Shown in pieces: positions 1-7,313 of a stretch of DNA of 32,102 nt. The notes beneath the pieces are model-generated. The model did no database searches. It was not told the DNA's origin and was given only the letters and a program-made list of their open reading frames with translations. The stretch's first letter is position 1. Each line of letters starts with the position of its first letter. Position numbers and translations under genes: made by a program. Source of the DNA: Thiomonas sp. (lineage in GTDB: Bacteria > Pseudomonadota > Gammaproteobacteria > Burkholderiales > Burkholderiaceae_C); contig DAIDHU010000505.1 of assembly GCA_027451915.1 (NCBI GenBank), positions 1-32,102 on the forward strand. The letters are read 5' to 3'.

Positions 1-1096
1 GTTCTTCCTCGTCGGTTGAATTAGCGTGGGCGGACGCATGTTCACGCTGTACTTGCATGGCCGAGACCTCCGTGAGAGCCGCTTCAACCGCGGCATGTTT
101 GGCCAGACTTTCAGGCGCAAGGATCGAGACCAGCCTGCGCCCTTCGTCGAGCCTGCAGATCTGGGAGATTTCCGCGAGGTCGTCATGACGAGCGAGCATG
201 GCAGGCAGGTCGTCAACCATGTCCTTGCGCACACGCAGCACCTCCGAGACGCTATCGGTCACCAGTCCGACCGCGGTCGCCCCCAGGGTGACGACGACGA
301 TCCGGCTGCGCTCGTCGATATTCCGAGCCGGCAGGTTGAACAGGCGCCGCAGCGACAACAGGGGGAGCAGCCTTTCACGCAGGGTCATCAGACCGATCAC
401 ATGCGCCTGCGCCTTCGGCACGTGGGCGATCGCCTCCGGAATCTGGACGATTTCCTGCACGCTCGCGATATCGATGGCGTATTCCTGGCCCTCCACGCTG
501 AAGCTGACGAGCTGCAATTCGTTGGAATCGACCTCCTGCTCGGGCGATGGCTGCGTACCCTGCAGGTCCTGCCGGACTTCGCTGCGCACCGCGGCAATGA
601 TCTGCGCGAACTCGCGCGCAATCAATCGCTCGAAATCCAGCACCATGACCATGGAAAAGCCGCCGACGTCCCGGAGAACGCCGCTGAGGAGATCGGAATC
701 GATCGTCGCGCGGATGCCGTCGACCTCCCCGATGCTGGCGGGCTCCACACTGATCACGCTGGCGATGCGGTCGACGACGAAGCCGAGCGCTTGTCCGATG
801 TCGATCACCAGGGCCCGTGTGGATTCATCATGAGCAGTCTCCTCGGCGCCGAAGATTCGACGAAGCGAGATGATGGGCAGTACGCGCCCACGCAGGTTCG
901 CGAGTCCGTGAAGCGAGCGTGGCGCCAGGGGTACCCGCACGATGTCGGGCATGCGAATGATTTCCTGCACCGGGTCCATCTGCACGCCGAACACCTCGTC
1001 GCCGACGATGAAGGTCACGAATTGTCGGGTCAAGGCACGCTGGTCCTCGGTCGCCGGGGGCCTGTCGCCTGCAGCCGACTGGATGTTTGTGCTCAT
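1..1096 (-). CDS. CheW-like chemotaxis adaptor with two CheW domains (C-terminus beyond window edge)
   Basis: Not in the supplied ORF track because it runs off the left edge. Reading the minus strand from ATG at 1096 gives MSTNIQSAAGDRPPATEDQRALTRQFVTFIVGDEVFGVQMDPVQEIIRMPDIVRVPLAPRSLHGLANLRGRVLPIISLRRIFG..., then a second copy ELQLVSFSVEGQEYAIDIASVQEIVQIPEAIAHVPKAQAHVIGLMTLRERLLPLLSLRRLF.... Both carry the CheW pattern. No stop before position 1. Confidence 0.93.
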   Translation of the reverse strand, partial: MSTNIQSAAGDRPPATEDQRALTRQFVTFIVGDEVFGVQMDPVQEIIRMPDIVRVPLAPRSLHGLANLRGRVLPIISLRRIFGAEETAHDESTRALVIDIGQALGFVVDRIASVISVEPASIGEVDGIRATIDSDLLSGVLRDVGGFSMVMVLDFERLIAREFAQIIAAVRSEVRQDLQGTQPSPEQEVDSNELQLVSFSVEGQEYAIDIASVQEIVQIPEAIAHVPKAQAHVIGLMTLRERLLPLLSLRRLFNLPARNIDERSRIVVVTLGATAVGLVTDSVSEVLRVRKDMVDDLPAMLARHDDLAEISQICRLDEGRRLVSILAPESLAKHAAVEAALTEVSAMQVQREHASAHANSTDEEE

Positions 1097-1110
1097 CGCA
1101 CCCTCCTGCG

Positions 1111-3024
1111 TCAAGCGCTTTGAAGTTCATCGGCTAGTGCCGCGATTTCCTCGATGGCCGAAGACAACTCCTCCGATCCGCGGGCCTGCTGTTCGGCGGC
1201 ACTCGCCGCCTCGCCGGACGCCTTTTCCGCCTCCTGCGTCGCTCCGGAGATCTGCTCGACACCCTCCTTGACCTTGGCAATTGCGGCGCTGACGATCTCG
1301 GCGCCCTTGACGATTTCTTCAGCCGCGCTGCGCACACCGTCGACTTCCACCTCGGAGGTTGCGATGTGCTTGAGAATGCCCTTGGCCTTTTCCGTCTCAG
1401 CTGCTGCTGCGCCGATGATTTCGCGCAAGTCGGAGCCAACCAGCACGATCTGATCCTGGATCGACTTGATCATGTCGCGGATGCGGTCGGCGTTCTGCGC
1501 CGAATCGTGCGAAAGGTTCCGGATGTCTGTCGATACAACGATGAAGCCCTTGCCGAACTCGCCAGCACGCGCTGCCTCGATGGCCCCGTTGACCGCCAAC
1601 ATGTTGGTCTGCACCGAAACCATGGCGATCGATTCGACGATCTTGTCGATGTCCCGTGCAACGTTCTGCAGGTCGCCGACCTGACGGGCACAACCCTGGG
1701 TGATCTCGATGGCCTTCATGGTTCCAGCCAGCATGGCCTCGATGGTGGTCTTGATTTCGTTGATCGCGTGCTTGCCGAACTCCGCCTTCTCCAAGCCGAG
1801 ATTGCCGCCCTTCATCGACTCCTGAACGTTGAACTCGACCTGCCGAATGGCTTCGTTGGCGTCATTGGCGGCGTCCGTCTGGTCCTTGGCGCCGCGCCGG
1901 ATCTCGCCGATGGCCGACATGATCTCGGTGGACGCGCGGGTTATTTCCTTGACCGCGTTGGACAGTTCCTCGGCCGACGACGCAACGTCCTCTGCGCTCT
2001 TGGAAATGTCGGTGGAGTTCTTCAGATCCTCCGCTGTCTCGCTCAGGCCGCGTGCCGTCTGCTCGCAGTCACCGAGGGCTTTGGCCTGCTCGGCAATGAT
2101 CTTGTTGGACTCCTCTGCAGCGGCCGATTGCTGCGCCGAGGCCGCAGCGATGGTCTCCGACACCTTGGCCATCTTCTGGGTTGCGGTGGTTGCCTCCTTG
2201 GCGACTCCCACCACCAGTCTCGAAGCCTGGACCACCTCCGTGGACGCCTGTCCGATACGTCCCAGGGAGTCATTGACCGCGTCGCCCTTGTCCGCCTCGG
2301 CCTGCACCGTGCTGGTCGATTCGTTGACGCCCGCGGCCACCGATTTCACGTCCGTCTGGATCTTGGCGATCAGGTCCGAGATCTGCTTGGCACTCTTTTC
2401 CGAAGTCTCCGCCAGGGAACGCACCTCGTCGGCAACGACCGCGAACCCCTTTCCGTGCTGGCCCGCGCGCGCGGCCTCGATGGCGGCATTGAGCGCGAGC
2501 AGATTGGTCTGGTCGGCAATACGCCCAACCGCCTTGACGATGTCCCCAATGTCAGCCGCCTGCTTCTCCAGTCCGGTGACCATCTTCACCGATTCCACCT
2601 GGCGCTTGGCAGCCTGAATGACGTTGTTGACCATCTGGGAGACCTCTTCCATCACCCGTTGCGCGGCGGCTACGAGAGTCTCGCCCTTTTGCAGCGTGAT
2701 GTTGGCGTTCTGGTCCACCTGGTCCACGCCCACGACCATTTCCTTGATACGCACCGCCGAGTCCTGCGCCGCGCTGGATGCCTGCTCGGAGCCGGCTGCA
2801 ATCTGCTCGGCGGCGCGCTTGAGCTCCTCGGCAGCGGACGCAGCCTCGTTGATACCCGCGGCCAGCTGCCCGGTAGCGGCGGCGATGCGCTCGGCTGCCT
2901 GCTGCTGCTTGGCCAGGGTCCGGGCTCGACGGCGTTGCGCCTCCGCTTCCTTGGATACCACGTTGGGCGCCCGGCTCGGGCCAGCAACCGCACCCGATGG
3001 CGTGGACTTTTTCACCAGACTCAT
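1111..3024 (-). CDS. Soluble methyl-accepting chemotaxis protein with two signalling-tip regions
   Basis: ORF 1111..3063; preferred start [11 protein letters not shown] at 3024, preceded by GGAG-type RBS. Tip 1 [38 protein letters not shown]; tip 2 [37 protein letters not shown]. No hydrophobic TM segment seen. Confidence 0.93.
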
Positions 3025-3439
3025 GACCAGACTCCTTGGAGGGACTACGGGTTGTCTTTGCACGGACCGTGCGGCTTATGCATCATCCGCGTCCGATGAA
3101 TTTTCTCGATAGCTCCGCAGATGCAGGAACGGATTGTTAGGGCGCATAGCAATGATGTTTTTGCCTTCGATCATGGAATTCCATGTTTTCACCTTTTCAC
3201 GCAGTCCCGGAAATCGCAGAAAAATACTAAGAGCGAAAACGGTGCAATTGAAACCCTGCCCATGTCTTACGCGCACCTCGGAAAAGGGCGGCACATCGAA
3301 GTGAGAATTGAAAATATATCGAGCAAGGCCAGGAATCGCGATATCGGCATACGATGATTCGTGGGGATGCAAGAGGTTGAATTAACAAGTTCCACGCCCA
3401 GGCACTTTTCGGCGAAATTCGACAGCCATCCAGGATCGG

Positions 3440-3656: not shown

Positions 3657-6600
3657 GTGACACCAGCCACGCGGCAGTTGCAGTGGAATTCCATACTCGA
3701 TACGGGTATTTCTGTCGTGGACAAACAGCATCGGCGCCTGGTGGAAATCTTCAATCAGGCCGCGACCGCTCAAAACGAGGGTGCAACCACGGAGCAGACC
3801 CTGGGCCTGCTCGATGCCTTGTTCGACTACACCCGCCAACACTTTCGCGAAGAGGCGCAACTCATGCGCAAGTGGAAGGTGCATGCGTCGCACCGCGGGC
3901 CCCATCTGCAGGCGCACAGGCGCTTCGTCACCTTCCTGGTGCGCATGCGCGTGCAAGCCTCGACCCATCCGGCCGAGCTCGCAGCCGACCTGATGAACTT
4001 CCTTGCGCAATGGCTACTGCACCACATCATGGGGCTGGACGCCGCCATGGCCCGAGCGATCCGCGCCGCCAAGGGTGAGCCGGCGCCAGCGCTCGAAGCG
4101 GCCCCGCAGGACCTGACGGCCAGGCAATATCTGCTCGACGTCATGGGCCAGCTCACCGATGCCCTCGGCAGGCGCACTCTGGACCTGCTCGATCAGCGCC
4201 AGACTCTGCTCGCGCAGCGCCGTAATCTGCTGGAACTGCAGGATCTGTACCGCGCCCTGCTTCGTTCGGCCGCCATCCTCATCGATAGCGGAAGCGAAGC
4301 CGAGATGCTGGAGAGTCTGTGTGAGACGCTCACGCGCGACACCCCCTTCCAGGCGGCGTGGATCGGCCGGCCCGGGGCTTCGCGGGCCTTCGAGATCCTG
4401 GCACTGCGGGGTTTCGCCGCGGGACAAGACAAAGAGCCCGGGCTGCAGGCTCGCGCGGTGGCCTGCATGGCCGATCGTGCCTGGAAGACGCGGCAGGTGG
4501 TGGTTTGCAACGATACCCAGTTCGAGGAATGTCTTCAACCCTGGCACGCGCAGCTGCGCTCGCAGGGTTGGACCAGCCTGCTGGTGGCGCCCGTGGAGCG
4601 CGGGCAGGACATCTGGGGGCTGCTCATGCTGGTGTCGGCGCGTCGTGAAGCCTTTGACGAAGGCACCATTGCGCTGTGCACGCGCATTGCCGGCCTGCTG
4701 GGTCACGGATTGGGCGAGTTCGACCGCAAGGAGCGGCTGCGCCACATGCAGCGGCACGAAGCGCTAGCCGCCCGCACCGATGTGCTCACCCAGTTGCCCA
4801 ACAGATTCGCGCTGGAGCAGCATCTGCCCCACACGATCCGGCGTGCGCGTCGCCAAGGCACGACCCTGGCGGTGGGTGTACTAGATCTGGATGATTTCAA
4901 GCCCGTTAACGACCGCTTCGGCCACGCAACCGGTGACGAGCTGTTGCAGCAGCTCGTACAACGACTTCGGACCACGCTGCGGGGAACCGACTACATGGCC
5001 CGACTTGGCGGGGACGAATTCGTACTGGTGTTCGAAGACCTCGACCCGGCGCACGCCGAGAGGCAACTGGCGGTGGTGTTGCATCGTCTGATGCAAGCGA
5101 TCCGAAATCCGTTCGATCTAGGGCCGCAACGTCAGGCGCGGGTGGGCATGACCCTAGGCCTGGCACTGTTTCCCGGCGATGGCGAGGACGCCGACACGCT
5201 GCTTCGCAACGCCGATGCTGCGATGTACCAAGCCAAGGCGCGCAAAAGCACCCGCACGCAGTGGTGGAGGCTGTGGGGCGAAGGAACCCTGGTCGAGTCC
5301 ACCGTGGAGACGCCAGTCGATCTTTTCGGCGAAGAAGTCCGGCAACTGCTTCAAGCCCTGGTTCCCATCGTGCAGGAGGTCGCGCCCGAGTTTGCCGCGC
5401 AGTTCTACGCCGAACTCATGTGCGATGCGCAGCAGGCGGCCATTCTGGACTCGCTGTTGCCGCAGGAGCTTGCGCATCTGCAGGACAAGCAGGCGCAGCA
5501 TCTGCAATTCCTGCTGCACCCGGACACAACGGCCGAACAAATCAATGAGCGCGCACAGCTCATCGGGCAGGTACACGCGCTCGTGGGCTTATCGCCCGCT
5601 GCGCTGCTGCAGGCGACGGCCCTGTACGAGTCGCTTCTGCGCTCTCGACTCGAGAACTCAGCCCTCATGGCCAAGACGCGCTACCGACTGGTGCGCATCA
5701 TCCAGGCGCGCATGGCCCATCACCTGCGAGGAGAGATCAATGCCCAGCAGGCGCTGCTGTCCACCTACCACGCACTGCTGGCTGACCCGCTGCCGTCGTT
5801 TGGGCGCTGGATCGACCTGGCGCGCTCCGAGCTGGACCGGATCGCGGCCTTGCCCGGCATCCGCGCCGTGTTCATCTTCAGGGTGAATGACTCCGGGCAG
5901 CTTCGCATTGAACTCGGCGCAGGGCCCGTGGCGGAGCAGATCCAGACCGGGATCAACGGCGCCGGACTTCACCCGACCATCCACCTTGGCCCCAACGAGC
6001 AACGCGGCGTGATGGGGCAGGCCTGGGCCAGCGCGACTCCGCAGATCGTGGACAGCTACCTGCTGGATGCGCGCCTGCGCCCCTGGCAGGCCATGATGCT
6101 GCCTCTGGGAGTGCGCAGCGCGGCCGCGATCCCCATACTGCGCGCAACAGCTGCCGAGGCCGTGTTGTTCATTCTCGGCGCGTATCCGCGCCAGTTCTCT
6201 AATCCCCTGTTGCAGACCTGGATCAGCGCCCAGAAAAATCGCTGGGAGCAGCTTCAAAATGCGGCCTGTGCAGCCCCACCACCGTCCGATGCCCTGCACG
6301 CCACAAAATGGCGCAGCCTGCTCTACCAGGGAGCCTTGCGCATGGTGGTGCAGCCGATCGTGGATCTGCGTGGCGGCACGGTCACCAAGGTGGAGTCGCT
6401 AGCCCGGCTGCAGGCGCGCGACGGGACCCTGGTGTCGCCTGGAATGTTCCTGCCAGCCATGGGACAGGACGACCTGCGCATTCTGTTTCGCCAGGGACTT
6501 GAGCAAAGCCTGAGCGCCTTGCGCCAGTGGCGCAAGGCCGGCACGGCCATCACCCTCTCACTCAACCTCGATCCGATCACACTGCTCGACCCCGATTGCC

Positions 6601-7313
6601 CGCTGTGGGTCGAGCGTGCGCTGTGCCATGCCGACCTGCCGCCCGACGCGCTCACGCTGGAACTGCTGGAGACGCGCGACATCGACCCCCGCCTCGCGGA
6701 TGCGTCGATCGCGCGCCTGCGCGCCACCGGCGTGGGCCTGACCATGGATGACCTAGGCTCTGGCTACAGCAGCATGAAGCGGCTCATGAACCTGCATTTT
6801 GACGTCATCAAAATTGACCAAGCCGTGGTCAAGGACGTGTTTGTCCATCCGCTGCAGGGCATCGCGCTCATGCGCACGGTACTGCAGTTGGGCCTGGACA
6901 TGGGCTGCGCGGTGGTCGCCGAGGGCCTGGAGGACAATGCGCTGGTCGAGGTTGCAATGCTGCTGGGTTGCGCACAGGGGCAGGGCTACGCACTCGCGAT
7001 GCCGATGGGCACAGCGGCCTTCGCCGAGTGGCTGGGCGCACACACGCCCATACCACTTCCCGGTGGGGGTGAGCTTCACTCCTGGTTAGGCGCGACGGCC
7101 TATGCGTGGGGCAAGGAGGGTGACATCCGGGTCGAACCCATGCGCCTGGATATGTGTCCGCTGACTCGGTTCTTGCACCGGCAGGGGGTGCGCGATGGCG
7201 ATGCGCTGCGCTGGCATGCGTTGATGCATGACAGCGCGTTCGAGCAGGAACGAACCCGTGCAAGACAGTCGCTGCTGCAGTGGCTGCAACAACAGGCACT
7301 TACCCAGCATTGA
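3657..7313 (+). CDS. Multi-sensor c-di-GMP protein: hemerythrin - GAF - GGDEF - globin-like - GAF - EAL
   Basis: GTG start with CGGAG upstream. Hemerythrin motifs (ISVVDKQHRRLVEIFN, RQHFREEAQLM, HRGPHLQAHRRF, WLLHHIMGLD); GGDEF at 5007..5021 with RGTD I-site five residues upstream; globin-sensor-like LIGQVHALVGLSP with His codon at 5574..5576; EAL domain with ESL variant (6393..6401), DDLGSGYSS, KIDQ, VAEGLED. Confidence 0.93.
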   Translation: MTPATRQLQWNSILDTGISVVDKQHRRLVEIFNQAATAQNEGATTEQTLGLLDALFDYTRQHFREEAQLMRKWKVHASHRGPHLQAHRRFVTFLVRMRVQASTHPAELAADLMNFLAQWLLHHIMGLDAAMARAIRAAKGEPAPALEAAPQDLTARQYLLDVMGQLTDALGRRTLDLLDQRQTLLAQRRNLLELQDLYRALLRSAAILIDSGSEAEMLESLCETLTRDTPFQAAWIGRPGASRAFEILALRGFAAGQDKEPGLQARAVACMADRAWKTRQVVVCNDTQFEECLQPWHAQLRSQGWTSLLVAPVERGQDIWGLLMLVSARREAFDEGTIALCTRIAGLLGHGLGEFDRKERLRHMQRHEALAARTDVLTQLPNRFALEQHLPHTIRRARRQGTTLAVGVLDLDDFKPVNDRFGHATGDELLQQLVQRLRTTLRGTDYMARLGGDEFVLVFEDLDPAHAERQLAVVLHRLMQAIRNPFDLGPQRQARVGMTLGLALFPGDGEDADTLLRNADAAMYQAKARKSTRTQWWRLWGEGTLVESTVETPVDLFGEEVRQLLQALVPIVQEVAPEFAAQFYAELMCDAQQAAILDSLLPQELAHLQDKQAQHLQFLLHPDTTAEQINERAQLIGQVHALVGLSPAALLQATALYESLLRSRLENSALMAKTRYRLVRIIQARMAHHLRGEINAQQALLSTYHALLADPLPSFGRWIDLARSELDRIAALPGIRAVFIFRVNDSGQLRIELGAGPVAEQIQTGINGAGLHPTIHLGPNEQRGVMGQAWASATPQIVDSYLLDARLRPWQAMMLPLGVRSAAAIPILRATAAEAVLFILGAYPRQFSNPLLQTWISAQKNRWEQLQNAACAAPPPSDALHATKWRSLLYQGALRMVVQPIVDLRGGTVTKVESLARLQARDGTLVSPGMFLPAMGQDDLRILFRQGLEQSLSALRQWRKAGTAITLSLNLDPITLLDPDCPLWVERALCHADLPPDALTLELLETRDIDPRLADASIARLRATGVGLTMDDLGSGYSSMKRLMNLHFDVIKIDQAVVKDVFVHPLQGIALMRTVLQLGLDMGCAVVAEGLEDNALVEVAMLLGCAQGQGYALAMPMGTAAFAEWLGAHTPIPLPGGGELHSWLGATAYAWGKEGDIRVEPMRLDMCPLTRFLHRQGVRDGDALRWHALMHDSAFEQERTRARQSLLQWLQQQALTQH

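Follow-up and report, generated by a model that had tools for sequence, protein, structure and literature searches.

Globin-coupled sensors such as DosC, BpeGReg, AfGcHK, and HemAT have an N-terminal globin and a single output. The protein described here, encoded in a window of 32,102 nucleotides from Thiomonas sp. (the whole stretch of DNA that was analyzed), shares with them the globin fold, the proximal His, and a B10 Tyr that is usually present in them. However, it departs from the usual layout of an N-terminal globin and one C-terminal output, as its globin is internal, between the two output domains GGDEF and EAL. DcpG from Paenibacillus dendritiformis likewise combines a sensor globin, GGDEF, and EAL on one chain under ligand-dependent opposite control: its phosphodiesterase is active in the Fe(II)-O2 form and the NO form switches on GGDEF, showing that a single globin is able to control both enzymes (PMC10882959). 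Unlike the window protein, DcpG has no reported hemerythrin, and the window protein differs further in the position of its globin between GGDEF and EAL, its two GAF domains, and an extra C-terminal domain.

The hemerythrin sensor Bhr-DGC from Vibrio cholerae, which is 10 times more active in the diferrous than in the diferric state (PMC9388753), resembles the window protein in having an N-terminal hemerythrin before GGDEF, and the di-iron ligand set is full in the window protein. Bhr-DGC contains neither a globin nor an EAL domain, whereas the window protein has both, as well as a GAF domain between hemerythrin and GGDEF. Control of a c-di-GMP phosphodiesterase by a hemerythrin or a globin, as proposed here, is known from Ferrovum Bhr-HD-GYP and Vibrio fluvialis GCS-HD-GYP, the latter showing phosphodiesterase activity in its Fe(II)-O2 form but none in the Fe(II) form (PMC10882959). 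In contrast to the window protein, each of these has one sensor, HD-GYP rather than EAL, and no cyclase.

Each part of the window protein is already known, and the protein is a variation on the multi-sensor c-di-GMP enzymes described so far. In a census from 2008, a single protein combining hemerythrin, GGDEF, and EAL was counted (PMC2556348), and the open-access papers that we searched contained no account of hemerythrin plus globin in one c-di-GMP enzyme. According to a 2022 review, a hemerythrin phosphodiesterase of the EAL type had yet to be discovered (PMC9388753), and the window protein would supply a hemerythrin-containing EAL protein. Studies of hemerythrin and globin c-di-GMP enzymes have so far dealt with one sensor each. 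If our reading is true, a single construct would allow one to ask for what reason cells maintain both iron chemistries for O2, and whether the two differ in threshold (fast autoxidation vs reversible binding) or in ligand (O2 or NO).

Domain architecture of the window protein

The gene is an uninterrupted open reading frame (0 internal stops) whose start codon agrees with the starts of its relatives (e.g., MTPSVRPLQW vs VTPATRQLQW). The domain order is hemerythrin, GAF, GGDEF, sensor globin, GAF, EAL, and an orphan C-terminal domain of ∼80 residues, with the following coordinates.

3657 to 7313, forward strand: Hr-GAF-GGDEF-globin-GAF-EAL-CT protein, 1218 aa, GTG start as in relatives
3681 to 4058, forward strand: bacteriohemerythrin domain, residues 9 to 134 (Pfam, NCBIfam; ligands H25, H62, E66, H83, H87, H123, D128)
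4293 to 4703, forward strand: GAF domain 1, residues 213 to 349 (Pfam GAF_2)
4773 to 5249, forward strand: GGDEF diguanylate cyclase domain, residues 373 to 531 (Pfam; I-site RGTD 442 to 445, GGDEF 451 to 455)
5325 to 5702, forward strand: globin-coupled-sensor-type globin, residues 557 to 682 (Pfam Protoglobin, phmmer to 8h17, AlphaFold pLDDT 89.5, Foldseek; B10 Tyr584, proximal His640)
5808 to 6281, forward strand: GAF domain 2, residues ∼718 to 875 (second GAF_2 stretch; family profile and alignment)
6312 to 7004, forward strand: EAL phosphodiesterase domain, residues 886 to 1116 (Pfam; ESL signature, catalytic residues conserved)
7062 to 7298, forward strand: orphan C-terminal helical domain, residues 1136 to 1214 (alignment, model, and profile; no Pfam match; C1167, H1187xxxH1191, and W1209 invariant)

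All Pfam domain matches given here are above the curated cut-offs. The Hemerythrin family matched residues 16 to 129 with 43.1 bits (cut-off 25.3, 7e-11), and the NCBIfam bacteriohemerythrin model scored 89.8 bits (cut-off 84). All seven predicted di-iron ligands (five His, one Glu, and one Asp) are present, in agreement with the N-terminal ligand motifs reported in a preliminary description that was made from the sequence alone. The ligand set is complete in 34/35 hemerythrin domains, although these sequences are related and the counts are not independent events. The same description had also listed a GGDEF domain with an intact RxxD I-site, a second GAF-like segment, and an EAL domain with an ESL variant, and all three were recovered. 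The GAF_2 family matched two stretches, residues 213 to 349 (1e-18) and the one assigned to GAF domain 2. The GGDEF match (6e-43) contains a canonical cyclase signature (G451 to F455) and I-site (R442xxD445), and the EAL match (1e-44) has the signature E913-S-L together with the complete set of metal and catalytic residues (E913, N970, E1002, D1031, D1032, K1052, E1089, and Q1109).

The Protoglobin family matched residues 557 to 682 with 36.6 bits (cut-off 25, 5.9e-9). The motif LIGQVHALVGL, around which a globin-sensor-like segment had been described, contains the predicted proximal heme ligand His640, and the predicted distal Tyr584 is present as well. An AlphaFold model of the globin, built from a 29-sequence alignment, is all-helical and confident. 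Its top matches among solved structures in Foldseek are DosC, a Thermosynechococcus globin, a Geobacter GCS, AfGcHK, BpeGReg, and HemAT (probability 1.00, query TM-score 0.63–0.70), and the modeled globin is of the sensor type. The proximal His is retained in 26/26 distinct fused hemerythrin and globin proteins and the B10 Tyr in 23/26, being absent from three; among globin bodies without a hemerythrin, the proximal His is found in 44/49 and lost in 5/49. It should be noted that these sequences are related rather than independent and that the difference between the two sets is small. In the window's genome, three paralogous globins (L055, L056, and L057) have the proximal His replaced by Q, Q, and L, respectively, and are probably heme-free because of this loss.

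Profiles built without the window protein recovered its hemerythrin (2e-53), globin (4e-47), and C-terminal domain (8e-22), as compared to an E-value of 2 or worse for the best of 200 shuffled copies, so these matches are not due to chance. Taken together, the presence of hemerythrin, globin, GGDEF, and EAL on one chain is confirmed at the level of sequence as a real combination, conserved in a few related bacteria. The preliminary description had proposed that one polypeptide may read O2 through two chemistries and gate opposing cyclase and phosphodiesterase activities. Among the observations that would count against this proposal, it had named a lack of a globin match, of the proximal His, or of di-iron ligands; Pfam, alignment, and AlphaFold/Foldseek analysis of the globin showed that none of these is missing. 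Together with the sensor-type globin model, these results support two O2 chemistries on one chain, while the opposing gating is plausible and is made more specific by the free-standing halves described below.

Distribution and history of the combination

When genome contigs were searched with the hemerythrin-GAF part, 31 loci were obtained, most of which encode the complete Hr-GAF-GGDEF-globin-GAF-EAL-CT order in one frame. There are 26 distinct proteins with both hemerythrin and globin, two of them from another family of the order and some cut by contig ends. Within the genus, at least one fused protein is present in 6/28 genomes (G000, G007, G009, G010, G012, and G020), some of which carry two or three, and G025 has one fused gene that is cut short in the globin. 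In the family sample (251 genomes, 141 genera) only the window's genus was found among the matches listed, and in the order sample (300 genomes) the window's genome and two genomes of family f20 were found. The class (369 genomes) and phylum (399 genomes) samples contained the fused protein in no other genome. Only the best candidates per genome were scored in these samples, so rare cases may be missed. As judged from these samples, the hemerythrin and globin c-di-GMP enzyme is rare and confined to one order among the genomes sampled. In one single-contig genome (L171, G509:C1), the fused gene stops within EAL after 1018 aa, through either truncation or frameshift. No relatives were found in viral contigs.

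The modules of the protein are also found separately. The GGDEF-globin-GAF-EAL body, often with the same C-terminal domain, has a wider spread and carries GAF, GAF-GAF, or other heads, and the window's genome encodes several such paralogues. Free-standing Hr-GAF-GGDEF proteins of 537 to 578 aa (L093, L103, L107, and L112) and free-standing globin-GAF-EAL proteins (L058, L059, and L164) were identified, and in two cases, L093 and L103, the Hr-GAF-GGDEF gene is next to one for a GGDEF-globin-GAF-EAL protein, both being on one strand. Two proteins from two other families of the class, outside the order, have Hr-GAF-GGDEF-EAL without a globin (L154 in G705 and L160 in G794) and are candidate hemerythrin EAL phosphodiesterases.

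In a tree of the globin-to-EAL region, the hemerythrin label needs three changes, at least two of which are forced by well supported branches. Based on these two to three changes, the hemerythrin head appears to have been acquired on several occasions, or acquired and later lost, so that heads were exchanged or lost. The Hr-GAF half of the window protein is sister to L083 (support 90/95, 61–65% identity), while the part from GGDEF to the C terminus has only 39–59% identity to L083. A grouping of the globin-EAL half with L083-L086 was rejected (p-AU 6e-7), although the branch concerned is long. Since only the Hr-GAF half is sister to L083, and since the long branch on which the window protein sits allows both, the data point to either a head exchange near residue 360 or a strong acceleration of the body.

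Proposed sensor-enzyme pairing and its alternatives

Our preferred reading, to which we assign somewhat less than an even chance, is a push-pull O2/redox switch, with the cyclase under the control of the di-iron site and the phosphodiesterase under that of the heme globin. The protein would be a soluble two-cofactor c-di-GMP enzyme in which each of two opposing enzymes has its own O2/redox sensor. The N-terminal hemerythrin (non-heme di-iron) would signal to the GGDEF cyclase via GAF1, and the internal heme globin to the EAL phosphodiesterase via GAF2. At low O2 or under reducing conditions, the di-iron site would be diferrous with the cyclase on and the heme would be in the deoxy state with the phosphodiesterase off, raising c-di-GMP and favoring a sessile state. 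At high O2, the di-iron site would oxidize and cyclase activity fall, the oxy-heme would turn on the phosphodiesterase, and lower c-di-GMP would favor motility. Cofactor loading, sensor-enzyme pairing, sign, and physiology are what we infer in this scheme. A fuller version, which we consider tentative and rather doubtful, holds that the non-heme di-iron sensor driving synthesis and the heme sensor driving breakdown form a two-threshold O2/redox push-pull or an O2-and-NO gate that arose in a small bacterial group when parts were fused or heads were exchanged.

The existence of Hr-GAF-GGDEF and globin-GAF-EAL halves on their own suggests that the cyclase is the partner of the hemerythrin and the phosphodiesterase that of the globin. 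If the sign of Bhr-DGC and that of O2-heme phosphodiesterases both hold here, O2 would lower synthesis and raise breakdown; Azorhizobium Chp1 is also listed as a protoglobin phosphodiesterase with O2(+) (PMC8846402). The wiring is nevertheless put conditionally because other globin cyclases have either sign, with the DgcO, BpeGReg, and DosD globins activating with O2 and PccGCS being inhibited (PMC10882959, PMC8846402), and because the globin of DcpG serves both enzymes. Also counting against our preferred reading are the many different N-terminal sensors with which the GGDEF-globin-GAF-EAL body is combined, the location of the globin between the two enzymes, the three fused proteins that have no B10 Tyr, and the long branch of the window protein.

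Some proteins with GGDEF and EAL in tandem use one of the two enzymes only for regulation. By analogy with this known behavior, the window protein could be a net phosphodiesterase in which GGDEF is now an allosteric GTP site and both sensors, in series, tune EAL. Almost all complete EAL domains in the family have kept the EAL residues and GGDEF signatures vary more among relatives (e.g., GGDEL and DGDEF), as would suit such a protein, but we regard it as unlikely because GGDEF and the I-site are canonical in the window protein and the Hr-GAF-GGDEF half is presumably active alone, given related proteins that end after GGDEF. It is also rather unlikely that the globin alone sets both activities, O2 turning on the phosphodiesterase and NO the cyclase, while the hemerythrin reports redox, peroxide, or iron supply. 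The precedent is DcpG, itself a globin-GGDEF-EAL protein, and the globin of the window protein may act on either enzyme since it is located between them. Furthermore, the hemerythrin sensors characterized so far sense redox state, not ligand binding, and autoxidize quickly (PMC9388753). On the other hand, the free halves suggest that each sensor can serve its own enzyme.

A pairing of hemerythrin and globin without selection, produced by a large paralogous family that swaps heads and leaving one sensor dispensable, would agree with the many paralogues of the same body with other heads in the window's genome, with the label changes in the C-half tree, and with the different sister relationships of the two halves of the window protein. 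We consider this improbable, as the fused proteins keep the proximal His throughout and the full di-iron set, whereas a few of the hemerythrin-less bodies have lost the proximal His, even though that difference is small and the sequences are related.

C-terminal domain and genome context

The C-terminal domain was overlooked in the preliminary description. It is common to most cassette paralogues and is conserved; C1167 and H1187xxxH1191 do not vary among the hemerythrin-fronted proteins and represent a possible metal site. Its AlphaFold model (pLDDT 84.6) had no match among solved structures in Foldseek (best E 1.9), and no Pfam family matched the sequence. A CZB zinc-binding domain was considered on the basis of the C..L..F and HxxxH patterns and of the paralogue L053 (C532), whose C terminus hits CZB. 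This assignment was rejected, as there was no Pfam hit, the hhalign probability was 1.6%, and CZB was absent from the fold hits. In the hhalign alignment the C and HxxxH nonetheless line up. Of the four zinc ligands of CZB (three His and one Cys), C1167, H1187, and H1191 are conserved, and at the position of H1141, the candidate for the first His, relatives have H, Q, R, or K. L053 (G000:C532) is itself a c-di-GMP enzyme paralogue with a globin and a CZB, the CZB match being below the cut-off in this protein and above it in its G015 and G009 relatives.

Upstream of the gene, the window encodes two further proteins.

1111 to 3063, reverse strand: soluble chemoreceptor-like protein containing two MCPsignal stretches, its gene diverging from that of the hemerythrin protein
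1 to 1123, reverse strand: CheW-domain protein with two CheW stretches, after the MCP-like gene

A search for the MCP-like protein near the loci of relatives gave only short matches of 48 to 69 aa, and the BamE-like, pterin dehydratase, and HflX genes of the window had no matches near those loci. Long antisense open reading frames in the window (69% GC) were set aside, and a promoter and terminator scan gave nothing exceeding shuffles. The window's genome (G000) is a draft of 3.19 Mb in 603 contigs, 84% complete, and carries a large predicted c-di-GMP and O2-sensor set. A total of 75 places match the GGDEF, EAL, or cassette regions of the window protein, and 11 protoglobin and six hemerythrin matches were found. 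The same genome contains a P-type metal ATPase-like frame (L064, G000:C266) with a C-terminal stretch that matches hemerythrin.
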